Of a stretch of 64,000 nt of DNA, positions 3,029 through 64,000 are shown one piece after another. The stretch's first letter is position 1; each line of letters begins with the position of its first letter. The translations under genes and the position numbers were made by a program. Below the pieces are notes generated by a model. The model ran no database searches, was not told the origin of the DNA, and worked only from the letters and a program-made list of their open reading frames with translations. The stretch is from Ectocarpus siliculosus (Eukaryota > Sar > Phaeophyceae > Ectocarpales > Ectocarpaceae), in the NCBI GenBank assembly GCA_000310025.1, contig FN649736.1, positions 4,236,682 through 4,300,681 on the forward strand, given 5' to 3'.

Positions 3029-4067
3029 TTAGAGTGCGGCGAGCACGGTGTCGCCAGAGGAGACGTCGGTGTAGCCGGTGCCGTCTTCCAAGAAAAGCTT
3101 CTCGATCGTGCCGTCGTTCACCTGTAGGACAAAAAAGGGTACATTTACTCCAGGACATGAGAAGAAAAAATGCTCGTTCAGCGACAAGAGCGAATCGAGC
3201 TTGTGTGCCCCGGAGCCAGCGAGCAAAAAAGAGGCAAAAACAAGGCAATGAACACTCGAGGGACACCCAAGATAAAGGAGACCCTTCGACAAAAGCAGCA
3301 AATGGACGGGAAAAAAAAGTTATCACTTTTGAGGCAACAAGGTCCACGGGACAAGAGCAACAACATTGCCACCAACTCACCAGACATCCGCGTACACAAC
3401 ACTCCCAAAGCACGCCAAGCGACACTAACCCAACGACAAATCTCACCGGTGTTTACAAACAGACAGGATCGTGGCAAGAAAAGCTATCATCATGAAAAGA
3501 GAGGTCAAATCATGTTTCTTGGTGGTGTTCCGACGAAAAAGTGGCGAGAAACGCTACAATCACGCAGCAGAGGTCAGATCAAAACGAAACGTGTATGTAA
3601 CGACAAAGAGAGAAGAGAGAACGACGACTCACGATCATCGCCAGGCGCTGGAGGCGGGTCCCGCCGAACTTTCCGGTCTTGACGCACAGGCCGCTCTCCT
3701 CGGCGAACACAGCACCGCCGTCGGCGAGCATGGTCACCTTGTCCTCCGCGTCCAGGGACTTGATCCACCGGCTCATGACGAACGCGTCGTTCACGGACAT
3801 GCACGCCACCGTGTCCACGCCCTTCTCCTGTTGTTGCCAAGCGTGAAGCAAGTAAAAACCGTCGAAATGGACAGAGGAAAAAAAAAGAGTCGTGCCGAAG
3901 CAGTTATAGGCCTTCTGTCGGGGAGGTGAGGGAGATAAGGGGTTGTGGGAGGCGTGCGACCGAGAGGTTGAAGGGCGGGGATGCGTGTTTTGGAAGAGCT
4001 GAGGCGGCGAAAACGTCGCAAGGGGGTGGGTGGGGGTGGGGGTTTTGGGGTCTACATAGAGAGAGGC

Positions 4068-4119
<52 letters not shown>

Positions 4120-4935
4120 AAGAGAGACAGAGAGACATTGAGACACAAAATCGAGAATGCCACAACCACGGCGAAAACAGCCACATAGCATGAAAGGTAG
4201 CCAACCATCCGGACCGACCGACCGACCTTGAACTTGTCGGCGTTAGCGATGAAGGAGGGCAGGTGGTTGTCGTCGCACGTGGGCGTGAAGGCGCCGGGCA
4301 CGCCGCAGATTACCACCTTCTTGCCCGCGAAGATCTCGCTGGCGGGTACGTCCTGTGTTGAGGTTCAATCGGTTGGTTGGCTGAGTGATTGGGAGATATG
4401 CATTAGAACGGGTGTGTTGTTGACGCGACATGGCGGCAAGGCCTTGACATTGGGAGCGCGGCGTTTGGTTGCCAAGTTAAGCAAGGGATTGGAGACAGAA
4501 CGTGCGTGTCGTTGACGCGGGATGACGACAAGGCCTCGAGACTTGAGACGCGTTACCGTGCCAAGGGTGTTCCGAAACACATCGCCACTGCTGTTACAAG
4601 TCGGCTCCGACGATACAACCAAGTCGAATCAGCTGCAACAAGCCCACTCCAGGACTAGTTGGCGTCGTGACGAGTAGCTCACGTGCGCTTCTTCAATCAC
4701 CAAACTAGCCGGTTTGACAGCCGGTTTTGTACGCGGAATACCGTCAAGTGTAAGTAAACGTGGTGCAAGGGCTGGTGAACTGGTACACGAGAGACCGGTG
4801 TACTTTTTAAAACAGCCGGTCTTGTACGCGGAATACCGTCAACGTGGTGCAATGGGTACTCACGGCAGGTCCCGCGTCGCCCTTGATCTGGAACGTGGAG
4901 TCCATAGGGAACTTGTCACCTTCCTTGATCGCCAT
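3029..4935 (-). CDS. PrxII: Type II peroxiredoxin (Prx5/PrxII family)
   Basis: The enzyme reduces H2O2 and alkyl hydroperoxides using thioredoxin or glutaredoxin/glutathione. Exons in order of transcription are 4864-4935, 4227-4352, 3633-3827 and 3029-3121. All have GT-AG borders and phase 0 joins, giving 161 residues, the normal length for cytosolic PrxII. The peroxidatic Cys is about residue 50 in the signature GVPGAFTPTC. The resolving Cys is about residue 75 in VACMSVNDAF, the spacing typical of atypical 2-Cys type II enzymes. The C-terminal part has GGTRLQRLAMIVNDG and LFLEDGTGYTDVSSGD as in relatives. The ATG at 4935 gives MAIKEGDKFP, the usual start of the mature domain. However, an acceptor-like tag lies directly upstream (about 4942), so an upstream presequence exon may exist (see 8269-8358). 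Intron 1 carries a local duplication and intron 2 a GA microsatellite. Confidence 0.94.
4073..4115 (+). repeat. GA dinucleotide microsatellite
   Basis: An almost pure (GA)n run of about 40 bp lies in peroxiredoxin intron 2, about 110 bp from the donor of exon 2. It follows a G-rich stretch at 4020-4050. Confidence 0.95.
4709..4856 (+). repeat. Local tandem duplication in peroxiredoxin intron 1
   Basis: The block agccggttttgtacgcggaa (about 4722) and its near copy agccggtcttgtacgcggaa (about 4813) both continue with taccgtcaa and then acgtggtgcaa. The period is about 91 bp. The second copy stops just before the exon 1 donor. Confidence 0.85.
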
Positions 4936-55006: not shown

Positions 55007-56305
55007 TGTTGGGTGTTGAATATATCCGCGCTCCGAAGTATAAGCAAGAAGTTCTTTGGCGGTGGTTGTGACTGGGCGCGTACGTGACAGCAGCAGCAGC
55101 AGCGGCAGGGAGATCCAGCAGGCAGTGCTCCGCGACAGCGGATTAGCGCTACCAATTTGCTCTCTGCAAGGAGGGTGGTTTCTCGGACCCTCAACGTGAG
55201 GCCCTCGTTCCACAACACCACGGAATATTCTATCTGAACTCTCTGATGTCGGCAACCGGTGTGCGTTTTGCACGCAGGAGGAGGAGTGGACTTATCACAT
55301 AGACTATCTATCCTATGCATACATTTCCTCCTGAGTATTTCAAATTTGAAAAACAACAATCTACAAATCTTTCTTGACAGTAGTCTGCACTGAGAGACTC
55401 TATTATTCCTGCAGGCAATCTGCGGTACGTTGATATTTTATTATGTCGCGGTTGTATTGATTGTTGGCAACGACGACCATGTTGAATAGTCCTGCTCCCT
55501 TTGGCGGCAGCCGCTCGAGCTATTGGACTTTTGAACCACGCGTCTCCATTTTGATCTGTGTACCCACATCATGACATTCCGACAGGTCACAGAATGTACT
55601 CTTCTTCTCGCCAAGTCACGAAGAAGCACCAGACAGCCAGACAGAGCAACCAAGCATATTTGCAGATCTTTCGATAAATAATTCCGAGACTATTCACCTC
55701 TCTCTGCAGCTGCAAGGGGCACTTGTGTTGGCCGGCGCGGCTGAGCCTTCATTGTGAGGACTTCAACACACATCGTTCGTTCCCTTCTTGAGCGTGGGTA
55801 CAGCCAGCCTATCTGCCATGTTTATCCCTTACGTGACTACACCCCCGAATCGGGCATGTTAGCAGGCACGATAACTCTTATATGCGACAACTTTCGAACC
55901 GAATTGAGCTGTGGATACCTGCGTCGACGACGGCTCGACGGTACGACTAGACCGCTCGAAAAGAAACAAAGTAACGACCGGGGACAGAAACAGCACGTCC
56001 CCTATACAGAAAATTGAAAGCCTGGGAGTTGCAATGCTCCGCAGCACCCTGCATCCCGCGCTGCTGCTGTGCTGCTGTGGACCTCAGTCCAGCACGCAGA
56101 AACGCGATAATGATGCTGTTTTTCCTCCTGCTTGTTGCGATTTTTCGCACGAGCGCTATGGACGGGGGTTCCTGTGTATCACGTTCGCAAGGAACAGGAG
56201 CTAGCTCCCCAGCCGGCTGCGTTGGGCCAACGGGTACAGCAGCACATCGATGGATCTGCGTCGCGCATCATTTGCAGCACAGAATTGACAAGAGGTGGGA
56301 GGGTT
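55007..56305. other. Intergenic stretch between divergent genes
   Basis: It must hold the 5' ends of the Gly/Ser-rich gene (-) and the OTU-piggyBac gene (+). No exon is resolved. The frame of the OTU exon is open back to 56132, so the first real exon of that gene may lie here. Terminal inverted repeats of the transposon were looked for by eye and not found. Confidence 0.4.
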
Positions 56306-59300
56306 ATGGTCTTGCCCGACCGCGCTGGTGTGTATACCGTAAAGCCGGATGGCCACTGCGGGTTTAGTGCGATGTCCGCGGGTCTGCAGGTTTGCCTCGG
56401 TAGAACAAGGGCCGCCCCCACCCCAGAGAACATGAGGAGCGTGGTCGCCCGTCGAGCCACGGAACATGTTCTTGGCGCATCCGGTGTTGAGGACTTGACA
56501 GCTGTACTCTCACCAGACCAGCTTGGGCGGGCCCGGAGTGTGCGTATACCGGATGTTTTAGGAGCTGCCGTGGAAGAAATGACGGCGCCGGAGGATAAGA
56601 CGGTCGGTTGGTTTCGCGAGAAAGCCCAGCTAAGTGCAACAACAAAATGGATTGACGTGACCTGGTTCTCTTTTCTGGCGTCGGAGTACGGGGTGAACAT
56701 CATGTTGTGGGAGCCAAGCCCCACGTACGGCACAGTTCAGCCGTACTCAGCAGCCCTCACGGCAGGCATGTTCTTGTTCGAGAAAAAAGACAAAATGGAC
56801 GAGGAGGGGGATCGCTGGGTGCATCTGCTCTATCGGAAACACGACGATCCGTGGGCAGCGCGCGAGGGTGTAGGTGAGGCAGGCCATAAACAGCACAACC
56901 ACTTCGACCGTCTGCAGCTTGGACTCAACGTACATACTTCCTTCATCGATGTCGTCAGAGTTGCAAAGGAGAAAGCGCTAGGAATGGCGGCGCCGGTGCC
57001 GTCGGCGAGCGCCACGGCCGGGAAGAAAGCGCCAGGGTCCGCAAACGTGGACGGAGAAGAGGTGGACGATCCCGAGTTCAGCATGAGACCAAGCGGCAGC
57101 AACAGCAACAACAGCAGCAGCAGCAGCCGGCAAGCGGAGGGAAAGGCTGCAGCGGGAAAGAAAAGCAAGGCGAAGATCGGGAGTAAGGTCGGGGTGAAGC
57201 GACCAACCGAGAGGCAGCCAGGGGACAGCAAGAGGCACAAGGCGGGGGGTGCACCGGGGAAGCAGCGCAAGGCGGTTGGTGTGCCGGGGAAGCGCAAGGC
57301 GGGGGGTGCACCAGGGGAGGGGAGGGGTGCCGCAAAGAAATGCAAGAGTACGCCGACGGGTAGGAGGAAATCGGTGAAGAGCAACGGCCAAGTAGACGAA
57401 GCCAACTATGATTCCGACGGCAGCATCGGGGGGGGGGACCACGAGCGAACCCAGGGCTCCTTCGCTAGCATGTCGCAGAACGAGAAGAAGGTGGTGGCCG
57501 CCATGAAGAAGATCCAGGAGCTCAAGTACAGGCGGGCGTACTTGCTGAGCAACAAGAGGAGGGCGCGGGGTCTAAAGGTGGGTTTGTGTTCGTGTAGACT
57601 TTTCTCTTGGCATTTTCCAGGCGAATAGGCGGACCTAAGAGAAGACGACGATTTATGGTGGTGCAAAAGTTGAGTCCGATAAATAGTGCGAATCAATACT
57701 GCTGTAGCAGTTTCTTGCGTTTTTTTTTTCGCTTGGAATACCGAGTAGAGAGTGCCCTATCAACGCTGAACAAACGCGTGTCTAGGTAGGCACTTTGTTT
57801 CGCCTCGTGTGGTCGCTAGTCTCTACCAAAAATAATCTTAGAAGTGTTGGTAAAAAGCACCTGGTTGCTTGCATGATCATGTTGACGCCTCCGTGCCTGG
57901 CTCCTGTTGCTCAACACGGGTGTGGTTTCCAATGTTGGCAGGGGGGCAACGAATGTCGAGTTCACGATTCGGAGTATGTAAATGCATGTGCGTGACCTGA
58001 ACACCCTACTGGCCCTGTATGGTGTTACTTTTGATCGCCGTGTCAGTTTCATGTGAATCTCTCGCTCGCTCGATTCGTAGGTGTTAGTGACACCGTCGCC
58101 TCGTACGACTTTATTTTTTTTCGGATGATTGAACACAACACGGCAGGGTATGAATTGACACACCTGCCGCTCTGTTTCCGCTGTTTGCCGACGACGTGCT
58201 CAACCCAGCTCAAGGCCATACGCGACAGGGAGAAGGAGAGGCTCAAGAAAGCGGCAGAAAAGGAAAAAGAAAACCAGCTTCGGCCGCGGCAGGAGGTGGA
58301 GGAGGAGGAGCGACAAGAGAGAGAGGAGCTAGAGAAGCAGCAGCAGCAGGAGCAGGAGGAGTTGAAAGCTGAGGCGGAGGAGTACCCGGAGGTGGCGTGG
58401 ACTGACCGCGGCATTCCTGACTTTGCGGGAACGACGGACCACAAGAAGAGAACCCGGCGGCAAGCGGTCAGCGCTGCTTCGCTGTCGGCGTCCGCGCGAT
58501 CGAAGTTGCCCTCTCTCGATACCTTCATGGGCGGCCGCGACGAGAACGGAGAGTTCCCGCTGAGTGGTTTGATGAAGACGTGCTTCAACATGATGTTCCC
58601 CGACAAGGCAGTAGATCTTTTCGTGCAAAAGGTGAGCATTGGTGTTTTCGTGTGGTCGCATTCCTTATTAAGTTGCACTCGAACAACTCAGTAGGGGGGT
58701 TGCACGCAAGTAAGAGACCGAGCCGTTATGCGTCGGACTTGAAAGTAGTTCCGCGGGAAGGGGGGGAGGGGGGGGGGCGGGATGAATTGTATGCCCTTTG
58801 TTGGTGTTTACACTGCATGATGTCGTCTGCATGCCTTGGTCGCCTAATCATACTGGCCGAATGTAGATCACAGCTCATCAAGATTGTCAAACACACGGGG
58901 GTTTATGCGGTGTTCATGCATACTTCCCTCCTGACGTGCTACGTACCAGCGTATCGTGCATGGGGTGGTTTGCAAGGGCGGATGCAATACCGCGGAATGT
59001 ACTCCCTGTAGAGAAGCACCCTCCCCCCCCCCTATCCAGCGCGCGGGATCCCTGTTATGTATGTTGTAATTTGATTACCGATATCCACCCGACCAACCCA
59101 ACAATTGAAAGCGGGTACTAGGTAGATGCCTGAGAACACAGTCTGTTGTGGCCCCTTGCGGTATTGCTTACGTTCCAAGACACCCGCGGAAGGCATATGC
59201 GGATTAATTTAATCAAACATGTCTGTGCTGCCACGGCTTGCATCAACAATCATTGTGTATATATACGACACCTCGGCGCGACCTCTGGGGCGAATATGCT

Positions 59301-62300
59301 AATCTTCGCTCCGTCTTGTTGTCCCTGACCTCTTCCGCGCGAAACGTGATACTTTTCCAGACCAACAAGTACGTGAACCTTTGCACCACACCACCACCCC
59401 CCGGAGCTACGGAGAAGCGCAAGGAGCATCAGATGAAGAAGACGAGAACTCTAGGCAGGGTCACCCTGCCGGAACCCGCATTCGAGCGCAAGCACATCTA
59501 CGGCATGCTGGGCATCACGATCACGATGGGGCTCACCAAGAAAACGCGCATGAGGAAGCACTGGAGTAGATCGTTGCACGACGACTATCCTCTAGTGAGG
59601 GCGTGCATGCCGCGTGACTTGTTCGAGCTGTTGTACTGCCGTTTCATCCACTGCTCGGACGGCAACGCTCCTCCTCGATTGTTGGACGAGGACAACACCC
59701 CTAACCCGGACTTCGATTCGAAGTGGCACATCAGGTGAGTTTTACCCGTCGGAGACTTCGAGCGTTCTGACTGTTGGACCACGCTCCTCCATTTTTTCAT
59801 GTGGTGAAATAAAACGGCCTCCAAGCCGGCGAGTACCCTAGAATCCAAATCCAAAGGGTTCATGTCGTTGTACCTGTCGTTGCCCTACACCACCCGCCCT
59901 CCCCGTGGAATACTACACGTGACCACTACAGTAGCGTACAGTTGTACACCACCCGCCCTCCCCGTGGAATACTACACGTGACCACTACAGTAGCGTACGG
60001 TTGGGATGATCATAGCTACGGACTAGCGTGGTTGGTGTGTGTAATCAATAGGCGAGCATTCGTATGTCCGTTCGTGTCCCACGAATGTTCTACAACAGAT
60101 TAACCAACGCCACACCTCCGTGCTAATCTTGACGTCGCTTCACCGGCAGAGAGCTCGAAGACATCTTGAACACCGCGTGGACGGAAAACATGGACTTCAA
60201 CCAGTGGCTGTGCTACGACGAGCAGATGGTGAAGACTGTGTCGAGGTACGCGCACTTCCTCATGAGACACCAGCCCAAGAAGCCCATCACCCACGGTACG
60301 CGGTTTGTGTTTCGTGTTGTATGGACGATTCCTGCCGACTGTGTGTTTTCCTTGTGACGGCCTTGCGGTGTGAGGGCTCGGCGGCTGGGGACATGGGCGA
60401 AGACCTTGTATAGTATTCGGTTTTCAAGGGCCACCATGTGGTGGAGTTGTCATTTTTGCTTTGTGGAGTTGACCCCCCCCCCCTCTCCCTCTACTGGAAA
60501 AATAGGAGCAGGAACATTTGGCGTTTAGGTCACATGAAGAAATCATGCCCGTGGGCATAATCCAAAGCTCGATTGCTACACAGAGCTCGGCGGTGCCGAA
60601 AATGGCGGAGCTGGAACCGTCAATGACTGTCCACGAGTTTCAAGCGGCAAACTCGAATAGAGTGCAAACGGGCACGATTGACTGCTGCGCCGCCTTGTTA
60701 ATTCGCTCCACCATTTTTCCCTATTCACGTTGTTCCAATGCAGGCGTGAAGATGCTCGCGATCTGCGACGTCGCGGGGTACTGTTTCGTCAGCAGCGTCG
60801 AGGGTGGATTTTCGGGGGATCCCAAGCTGAGGAAGTGGTCTGACTGCCCTCTGGGACGGACCACTCGGCACGTTCTACATGTCCTGCTCGACGCCTGCAA
60901 GGAGTTCGGTGACAAAATCGACGGCTCTGGCGTGCACATCGCAATGGACAACTACTTCACAAGCCCGACACTGTTCGAGTGTCTTGCGGGCCACGACATC
61001 TTCGCGGTGGGTACGTGCCGGGTTAACCGAACCGCTGGCGCGATCCCTTTCTTGCAGAGCCTCGATCGCATCCCCGTCAAGCGGGGAGACATGAACTTTG
61101 CCCGCGCCGGCAATGTCGCATTCGTGCAGTGGCTCGACTCGAAGGATATCATCCTGTGCAGCACCATCCACCTCGCGCAACCTCGCGCCGCCATCGGCCA
61201 GCCCAAGAAGGAAGACGACGACGGCGGCGACGACCATTTCGCACCTCTACCTTACAGGTGACCTTTTTTGTTGTTGTTGACCAGATTCATGTTTTTATTT
61301 CTGCGTCTTCATGTCGGATGCCTCGCTCGAGTAGCATGTCGGTCAAACTGGTTCGTGCAAAGGTTGATGGAGTTCAAAGTTTGGTGTTGCCAAAATGCAG
61401 CGGCTCGGGTTCATGCCTTTAGTATTCGGTTCGTCACACAGGCTGTTCTCACCGACCGGGAACGTGCTTGGGGCTTGAGCATTGTAGTGTTGACAGGGGC
61501 TGATGCTACGCCGGGGTAAAAATAGGTTGCTACGTCCGACGACCTCCATCCAGTTCGTCGTCGCCGCAGCCGCAAGTGTGGTGCCTGACCCATGTGTTCC
61601 GCCTGCCCCCCGCCTGCCTGCCCCTTTTCGTGCGTGTCCAGCCTGCGCAAAGCTGGGCAGAAGGGGAAACCCATGGAGCTACAGCAGCCGTGGATGCGTA
61701 AGGATTACGTGGCCAACATGGGGGGAGTAGATACGGCCGACCAACAGAATGGTTCCCACGCCCATGACCACAAGGCGTGCACGAACTACTGGCGGCGAGT
61801 GATGGAGGCCAAGATTGAGCAGACGTTCACCAACATTTTCGTGATGTTCAAGGCTTTGGTAGCCTTCTGGGACGGTGAAGCGAAGGAGAGGCTCGAGAGA
61901 GGAGACCTAGACCTTGAGTCGTCGATGGAGTTGGAGGGAGTGGTGAAGGAGCTCCGCAGGTTGGCCAATCTTGAGAGGTCGGACTGGGACGAACAGATGT
62001 CGACGGAGCTCATGGGGAGGTGCGGTGTTGGTAGCCTCAACAAGGGGGGGAGACAGGTCAAAGATACGGAACCCCCGAAGGACGTTTGGGGGAGCGTTCA
62101 CATTAAGACAAAACGCAAGTGCATGTACCCCGGATGCAAGAAAACGACAAGAAAAGGGTGTGCCTGCGAGGCGTTCTGCGGTGCAGGGCGGGAGGGGGGC
62201 GGGGGGGTTTTGATGGTGCAAGGGATGCTTCGAGAACCCGGCGAGGCACGCCTAGGGCCGCACGGGCTGAACGGGAGGCCTCGAAGTTCGGAAAAAGGAC

Positions 62301-62314
62301 ACGGAAGGATATGA
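56306..62314 (+). CDS. OTU cysteine protease - coiled coil - piggyBac-type transposase fusion
   Basis: Exons are 56306-57577 (open from 56132), 58209-58631, 59361-59734, 60150-60295, 60744-61257 and 61642-62314. All five joins keep phase, giving about 1133 residues from the ATG at 56306. Exon 1 has an OTU-like domain: nucleophile Cys about residue 18 in KPDGHCGFSAM and His about residue 199 in HNHFDRLQL. Such enzymes cleave ubiquitin or similar tags. A basic Lys/Arg/Gly-rich stretch follows, probably for nuclear entry or DNA binding. Exon 2 encodes a long Glu/Gln/Lys coiled coil. Exons 2-6 form the transposase (DDE_Tnp_1_7): the N-terminal FNMMFPDKAVDLFVQKTNKY, then the three catalytic Asp in YDEQM (about 713), AMDNYFTSP (about 807) and GGVDTADQ (about 940). 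A C-terminal Cys-rich finger (CMYPGCKKTTRKGCAC) ends it. The catalytic set is intact, but five introns are unusual for a mobile copy, so domestication is possible. Confidence 0.87.
59885..59999 (+). repeat. Two-copy tandem repeat of 58 bp in transposase intron 3
   Basis: The unit acaccacccgccctccccgt, then ggaatactacacgtgaccac and tacagtagcgtac, occurs twice with almost no difference (about 59887-59940 and 59945-59999). The duplication is therefore recent. Confidence 0.95.
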
Positions 62315-62522
62315 ACTGGTGCTCGTGACCGTTTTTTGTTGTTGTTGCGAGTGTTTCGGGCGGAGGAAACAGGGATCGACTCGTGTAAGGGTCCCTTGAC
62401 ATATTTTTTGGCAGGCAGACTGATCGTAGCGCATCATCTTCCCGTCCGTCATGAAAATGTTTTACTCCGTCGTTTACCTGTTGTGTCTTCCCGATAGCAG
62501 TGGTATTATAGTGTGGGGCGTT

Positions 62523-62865
62523 TGTGTTGTGTACTTGTTTACCACCCATCTGTATCATGTAGCGGTCGAAAGTACGATCGTTTTCATCCTTGCGAGATAA
62601 AGTGCAAGTTACTGAATCACAATATTGTAGGTCTTTCATTCCGCGCTATTTCTGAAAGCGTGTGTCTTTAGAGTCTGAAGCGTCCTCCGGGATATGCGGT
62701 GAAGAGTGCTTGTCGGGCAACTGTTGGTGGGAGCCGGCGGTGTCACCTGCGGTAGTGAGTTTTTAGCCCCCCCCCCTTTAGCCCCCATTCGCTTGTAACT
62801 ACTGTCAGTGTTGTTGCGATTAGCCACGGCTCGTGTATCGCTCGTTGTGTGTCGTTTTTAACCCG
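62523..62865 (+). repeat. Gap-flanking duplicated segment, copy 1
   Basis: 343 bp that recur at 62966-63307 with only about five differences, including one missing A (gtcgaaagta versus gtcgaagta) and a to c in gggagccgg. The segment lies 3' of the transposase and contains a run of ten C. No coding function is seen. It could be a true tandem duplication or two haplotype ends left unmerged. Confidence 0.95.
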
Positions 62866-62965
62866 NNNNNNNNNNNNNNNNNNNNNNNNNNNNNNNNNNN
62901 NNNNNNNNNNNNNNNNNNNNNNNNNNNNNNNNNNNNNNNNNNNNNNNNNNNNNNNNNNNNNNNNN
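62866..62965. other. Assembly gap of 100 N
   Basis: Exactly 100 N, a placeholder for a gap of unknown size. It is flanked on each side by copies of the same sequence of about 343 bp. Confidence 0.98.
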
Positions 62966-63307
62966 TGTGTTGTGTACTTGTTTACCACCCATCTGTATCA
63001 TGTAGCGGTCGAAGTACGATCGTTTTCTTCCTTGCGAGATAAAGTGCAAGTTACTGAATCACAATATTGTAGGTCTTTTATTCCGCGCTATTTCTGAAAG
63101 CGTGTGTCTTTAGAGTCTGAAGCGTCCTCCGGGATATGCGGTGAAGAGTGCTTGTCGGGCAACTGTTGGTGGGCGCCGGCGGTGTCACCTGCGGTAGTGA
63201 GTTTTTAGCCCCCCCCCCTTTAGCCCCCATTCGCTTGTAACTACTGTCAGTGTTGTTGCGATTAGCCACGGCTCGTGTATCGCTCGTTGTGTGTCGTTTT
63301 TAACCCG
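62966..63307 (+). repeat. Gap-flanking duplicated segment, copy 2
   Basis: Near-identical to 62523-62865. Copy 1 breaks off at aacccg, immediately before the N run, whereas copy 2 continues into unique sequence. Confidence 0.95.
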
Positions 63308-64000
63308 AAACCTATGTGGCAAGAGCCTTAGGTTTGGCGTCGGTATCCCGTGCTTTGGTCGACAGACATGTTCGCACGTAGACAAGGAATGGAGTACGAA
63401 GTGTACAAGGTTTGCAGATACCAAGGTTTGCAGATAAAATCGAAAGAAGTCTTCGGCATCTAGATAAACAACGTTTTCCTGGCACTTTAGTTTTTTCACT
63501 GCGTGCGGTGTAGTCTAGTCCTTTCGTGCGACAACGTCATACACACCACGTGCCGGTGGTGCTCACCAGTAGTTCAGAGACCGCAAACGGCATCGGAATC
63601 CAACCGTGTGCCAATGACAGACATTCCGGAGACCTTCATGCGATCAAGTCGTGAATACTTGCAAGATCATTTGTTCCATGTTTATTCCATTTCTTCATCT
63701 CGAAACCAAGGCGCTGATCTCTGCGAAAATGCAATACACATCTCCCGGCGAGTGCGCCTGCAACATGCGACGAAACATACGGAATTTTCAGATCACACCA
63801 TTGCACCATCGGTTGTTCCACCGAGTTGTGCCTTGCAGCACTCTTTCTCCAAATAACCCCAGCGAATTGAACGACAAACCCAGCGAACTCAAAGTCATGC
63901 GGGGGCACGACGCCCTGCAAACTAGCCAAGCGCAAACCTTGAGGGTCTGCTCGAAACTCTTGTAAGTACGAAACCCTCTCCACCCCCCCACCCCACCCCT
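63308..64000. other. Right end of the window, no recognised gene
   Basis: Open frames of just over 100 codons occur on both strands (plus 63503-63856 and minus 63636-63983) and overlap. Neither has a known motif; the minus one (with FEFAGFVVQFAGVIWRKS) looks slightly more protein-like. A small perfect hairpin, aaacctatgtggcaagagcc then ttaggttt, lies at 63308-63335. A duplicated aaggtttgcagata occurs at about 63408-63436. Confidence 0.4.

Follow-up and report, generated by a model that had tools for sequence, protein, structure and literature searches.

The question raised by this locus is whether an OTU-like domain and a piggyBac-type transposase are encoded as one protein, and whether this protein belongs to a mobile element or to the host. 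The locus lies in the window, the whole stretch of 64,000 nucleotides of Ectocarpus siliculosus DNA that was analysed. An earlier note, made from the sequence alone, had described an OTU deubiquitinase-like domain fused to an intact piggyBac-type transposase and had proposed either a new piggyBac lineage or a domesticated host gene. The reading considered probable here is that of a recently mobile piggyBac family with a single spliced gene, which encodes an OTU-like domain, a basic linker and a transposase, and in which a predicted OTU activity would operate in cis.

The predicted gene lies on the plus strand and comprises six exons of 1272, 423, 374, 146, 514 and 673 bases, which join in frame to 3402 bases (1133 amino acids plus the stop) across introns that are all GT-AG. 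The phase-consistent join proposed earlier was thereby reproduced exactly. Exon 1 (56306..57577) encodes the OTU-like domain at 56306-56977 and the basic linker at 56978-57577, and ends in a phase-0 donor. Exon 2 (58209..58631) covers a charged region and the start of the transposase, which continues through exon 3 (59361..59734), exon 4 (60150..60295), exon 5 (60744..61257) and exon 6 (61642..62314). The stop-to-stop frame of exon 1 extends over 504 codons, against longest frames of 201-406 codons in 30 random 64-kb sequences in which the dinucleotides of the region were kept. The codon-usage score of the OTU part places the correct frame at the top of the six, yet its value is about zero (-0.008). 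Elsewhere in the window, exons of a redoxin gene are found at 3579-4364 on the minus strand (Pfam Redoxin, E 7.6e-21).

The transposase part is well identified. The Pfam model DDE_Tnp_1_7 matches residues 548-974 of the window protein (E 5.3e-33), and the three Asp motifs previously reported are all found, the first (YDEQM) in exon 4, the second (MDNYFTS) in exon 5 and the third (GGVDTADQ) in exon 6. The sole solved chain matching by sequence at E <=0.01 is piggyBat (9c0f; E 2.5e-7). The second and third motifs fall within the stretches aligned to this chain, and the first is assigned by motif only. The same Pfam search on the joined protein gave no match to the OTU-type models.

The transposase had also been called intact, with a Cys-rich C-terminus. 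This holds for the Asp motifs and the DDE domain, and fails for the tail encoded by exon 6. At about 62,200-62,260, near the end of this exon, the frame of the window copy is shifted against that of each of the 18 other loci spanning the site, and because of this difference in frame the Cys-rich end, visible in the relatives C472 and C187, is shortened. Inside the element, at 62523-63307, a gap of N is enclosed by two direct copies of some 340 bases that are 99-100% identical to each other. This repeat looks like an assembly duplication, since the copy C53 has it once; the latter differs from the window copy by single bases in exons 4 and 6, and its exon 5 is interrupted by a gap of N. Given the gap and the 99% repeat so close by, the frame shift in exon 6 reads equally as a mutation or as an assembly error.

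The finding had been placed at 56306..62314. The element is real, and the mobile unit extends further than this and past the window: it measures about 10 kb, from 55826 to about 2.25 kb beyond the window end, and contains the OTU exon. It occupies 55826..64000 of the window, on the plus strand, and reaches its right end near window coordinate 66251 (about 4302932 on G000 C11), which is why a search for element ends within the window alone found none. The left terminal repeat, CCCTTACGTGACT (55826..55838, plus strand), matches the inverted right end in 12 of 13 bases, and the short inverted ends start with CCC. The unit ends CCCTTACGTGACT/CCCTTTCGTGACT adjoin TTAA. In the window copy, the target-site copy on the left is TTAT (55822..55825), TTAT also adjoins the right end outside the window, and the last GGG of the right end is missing. 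The right-end pattern, AGTCACGAAAGGG followed by TTAA, is present at 14 of the 18 places examined.

Copies were searched in the genome from which the window comes (189 Mb in 492 contigs), and the match counts are lower bounds. There are at least 29 exon-level matches to DDE_Tnp_1_7 and at least 39 matches to the OTU-like domain, at least 18 of the latter covering it fully or almost fully at 99-100% identity. The similarity between copies begins at window position 55826 and runs rightward, and the sequence to its left is unlike. Among the 25 places with a left end in family 1, to which the window copy belongs, TTAA stands directly before the left end, CCCTTACGTGACTACACC, in 19, with 17 distinct flanks; the shared left flanks are those of C53/C24 and C162/C23. 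The other six left ends are preceded by TTAT (the window copy), TTAG, GGAA, TTAC, AAAA and TAAA. Fifteen copies were paired for their ends, of which two showed no right end in the bases examined and 13 could be read at both. Eight of these 13 carry TTAA twice, TTAC adjoins both ends of C30 and TTAT both ends of the window copy, and in the remaining three (C12, C66 and C241) the two flanks do not match. C53 and C24, which are counted among the eight, may represent one insertion event.

The copy length is 9.9-10.4 kb in the nine copies with an exon-5 match and 8.3-8.7 kb in the four without it. These shorter copies (C12, C456 at 126-134 kb, C30 and C241) keep the OTU exon and exon 3, or part of exon 3 in the case of C241. 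Judged from their sequence they look like internal deletions, sequence gaps being an alternative. The minus strand of the element tail in the C53 copy (L043/L060) has a 249-codon open frame, whose first Met starts MDPEDIAQFW. The 133 residues from this Met gave no match in Pfam, and the frame might represent a second gene.

The copies decide between the two origins first proposed. A domesticated host gene of piggyBac origin would agree with a gene that is mostly open in the window copy. On the other hand, the protein of exon 3 is 100% identical at 15 places, common ends are embedded in different flanks, and the non-coding tail is as similar between copies as the exons are. Domestication is therefore rejected as hardly credible; a single-copy gene lacking transposon ends is ruled out by the many copies that bear them, and a diverged second family repeats the same plan. 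The new piggyBac lineage was the suggestion that held, with many copies, defined short inverted ends, TTAA-type target copies, an OTU exon lying within the unit and, again, the second family.

The association of the OTU exon with the transposase was followed through exon 3, which has 35 matches in the genome, 22 at 66-100% identity to the window and 13 at 36-54%. Twenty of the 22 close matches are preceded by an OTU match on their own strand, at a distance of about 2.5-3.1 kb, the exceptions being C474 and C234. No OTU match was found beside any of the 13 distant places, and the single one of them that was inspected reads only N. Consequently, the OTU domain marks a part of the piggyBac elements of this genome, or has diverged past detection in the others.

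The second family comprises C16, C187, C122 and, with no OTU match, C234. It shares the exon order of the window copy, and its matches to the window protein break near residues 425, 566, 690, 739 and 910. Its OTU part is 34-38% identical to that of the window and its exons 3-5 about 53-70%, and the stretch corresponding to the charged region of the window protein, which the earlier note had called a coiled coil, has different residues. The TTAACCC left end recurs as TTAACCCTTATGTGAC in C187 and C16 and, as a variant, in C234; it was not found in C122, nor in a solo OTU copy on C11. This solo copy (L082, C11:3879507-3880181, minus strand) is a family-2-like OTU frame in which the His of the conserved box is replaced by Tyr, and no transposase match occurs within the 6.1 kb examined.

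The second family also bears on whether one protein or two are made. An OTU-like accessory protein could end at the stop in intron 1 (57626-57628), with a separate transposase initiated at a Met codon of either intron 1 or exon 2. The frame of exon 1 does run on to a stop at 57628, and that of exon 2 can be extended upstream as far as 58035 and includes in-frame Met codons. Against this, the window copy and all five other copies examined (C472, C187, C122, C16 and C234) keep the donor of exon 1 after the motif [ST]NKR[RK]A.G.K, and the protein encoded by the 3' end of this exon is still 50% identical to that of C16, whereas in family 2 no match to intron 1 could be detected. Two proteins are thus considered improbable, and the single spliced gene is preferred. 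The exon-2 acceptor of family 2 was sought and not located.

A further possibility is that the element captured the OTU exon from the host and carries it as a functionless passenger. The comparison of recent or decayed copies would allow it: dN/dS is 0.53-0.89 in ten such pairs, which are little informative, and when the window copy is compared with the decayed C472, conservation is no higher in the OTU part (75%) than in intron 1 (77%). In this last pair, dN/dS is 0.56 for the OTU part and about 0.50 for exon 5 of the transposase. The comparison between families speaks otherwise. Of the parts compared here, the OTU exon, in frame, and exons 3 and 5 align, whereas introns 1-4 and the leader have no match. 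At codon positions 1, 2 and 3 the OTU part has diverged by 0.46, 0.44 and 0.63, and its dN is 0.66 against a saturated dS of 3.36. Since the exons compared align and these introns and the leader do not, the OTU frame has been selected. It is the older, between-family comparison of the sequences, and this comparison only, that shows such selection, and a functionless passenger is regarded as very unlikely.

The identity of the N-terminal domain rests on its relatives and on weak fold evidence. The two boxes named earlier are present: the putative catalytic Cys18 of DGHC (56357..56359, plus strand) is part of a DG.CG box that is invariant in the seven aligned members, and the putative catalytic His199 of NHFD (56900..56902, plus strand) is kept in five of the six sequences that reach it, the exception being L082. 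Further residues are conserved between the Cys and His boxes. The expected Pfam match is missing, the OTU-type models giving none with the window protein. Peptidase_C65 scores below its cut-off of 24.3 bits in two of the seven members (22.4 and 19.3 bits; E 9.5e-5 and 8.4e-4), both of which are closely related decayed copies whose stops within the matched stretch were read as Trp. For the OTU part, the profile search of the PDB returned nothing, and the sequence searches of the PDB returned nothing or unrelated chance matches (E 0.11 or worse). When the profile of this part was compared with those of three OTU domains encoded elsewhere in the genome, the match was weak (19% probability over 13 columns). 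Long open frames with a C-terminal OTU above the Pfam cut-off occur elsewhere in this genome (L088 and L089, on C26 and C103); they have a Pif1-like helicase look and are probably Helitron-like.

The fold model of the OTU part has a mean pLDDT of 51 and is better at residues 18 to 131; the model made with no alignment (pLDDT 30) is of no use. In Foldseek, with none of the matches significant, human Otubain 1 ranks first (E 0.51) and an Otu2-bound complex second, followed lower down by OTUD2 (rank 5) and SnOTU (ranks 8 and 14). A Foldseek search against viral models gave nothing significant. Taken together, the conserved boxes, the sub-threshold Peptidase_C65 matches and the non-significant fold matches suggest that the domain is very probably an OTU of the otubain-like type.

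Whether this domain cleaves ubiquitin is a separate matter. The protein could be single and its OTU-like part no active protease, either binding ubiquitin only or having another fold with similar motifs. This would explain the missing Pfam match and the non-significant fold matches, and the His is lost in one solo copy. It is harder to reconcile with a Cys box kept in seven of seven members and a His kept in five of six, and with a fold list headed by an otubain and other OTUs. An inactive OTU-like part is consequently judged unlikely, and an active protease is the moderately favoured prediction.

The mechanism proposed for this family starts from the transposase. A piggyBac transposase cuts at the element ends and pastes into TTAA sites, and the transposase encoded here would likewise cut the ends and insert the element into such sites. 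The OTU part, as a putative ubiquitin protease, would work in cis, its most likely target being ubiquitin on the transposase itself and a less likely one the repair or chromatin proteins at the site. The removal of ubiquitin would let the complex survive until transposition is finished. Among the roles considered, protection of the transposase from turnover is tentatively placed first, by analogy with the Helitron deubiquitinases in the cited part of PMC9741609. A role in repair or chromatin comes second and is rather unlikely, and binding only comes third and is more doubtful still. It is conceivable, and put forward with reserve, that a piggyBac lineage, in parallel with Ginger1 and Helitrons, acquired an otubain-like deubiquitinase independently and made it an obligatory N-terminal portion of its transposase, with its activity in cis needed either for transposition or for the transposase to survive. 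If the lineage does need the OTU part in cis, copies that have the OTU exon and lack the later transposase exons may act as regulators.

The element shares with the piggyBac superfamily the catalytic domain, the three Asp motifs, the TTAA-type targets, the inverted ends starting with CCC and, in the relatives, the Cys-rich tail. It differs by its N-terminal OTU-like domain and linker, about 424 residues encoded by a first exon of their own, and by a length of about 10 kb with five introns. In PMC12477816, Ectocarpus is described as having four PiggyBac families with 1588 copies, as well as a Mariner-type transposase with an N-terminal EsV-1-7 domain. The term OTU is absent from the main text of that paper, and the fusion may be noted in its supplement; no OTU-piggyBac fusion appeared among the papers listed in the literature searches. 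No relatives were confirmed in viral contigs or in bacterial and archaeal genome contigs, and the PHROGs search gave no match.

With the otubains (Peptidase_C65) the OTU part shares the DG.C start, the His box, the sub-threshold match in two relatives and the top, non-significant, fold match. In otubains the His follows closely behind an LLYR-type stretch. The window protein differs in that it has no profile match and that about 20 residues separate its LLYR stretch from NHFD.

Domains of the deubiquitinase type are already known on other transposons. In Ginger1, an OTU-type protease domain is joined to a DNA transposase, and the authors propose a DNA repair role (PMC2836005). The OTU or Ulp1 domain of Ginger1 is C-terminal and accompanies a Gypsy-integrase-like transposase, whereas here the OTU-like domain is N-terminal on a piggyBac transposase. 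Membership in Ginger1 is ruled out by this N-terminal position and by the DDE_Tnp_1_7 transposase. Helitrons carry OTU or VTD deubiquitinase domains, and the VTD domains of zebrafish Helitrons are active in vitro, as reported in the cited parts of PMC9741609 and PMC6431247; the former also describes the activity of transposon OTU domains as untested. Helitrons resemble the present element in having a deubiquitinase domain, here a predicted one, on a transposon protein, but they use a rolling-circle RepHel and not a DDE transposase. An active domain would mean that ubiquitin removal has been recruited by one more class of DNA transposon in addition to Ginger1 and Helitrons, and this would suggest a common need, for example escape from turnover or control of repair. 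As piggyBac is among the best-studied transposases, the question would be directly testable with an OTU-piggyBac element.
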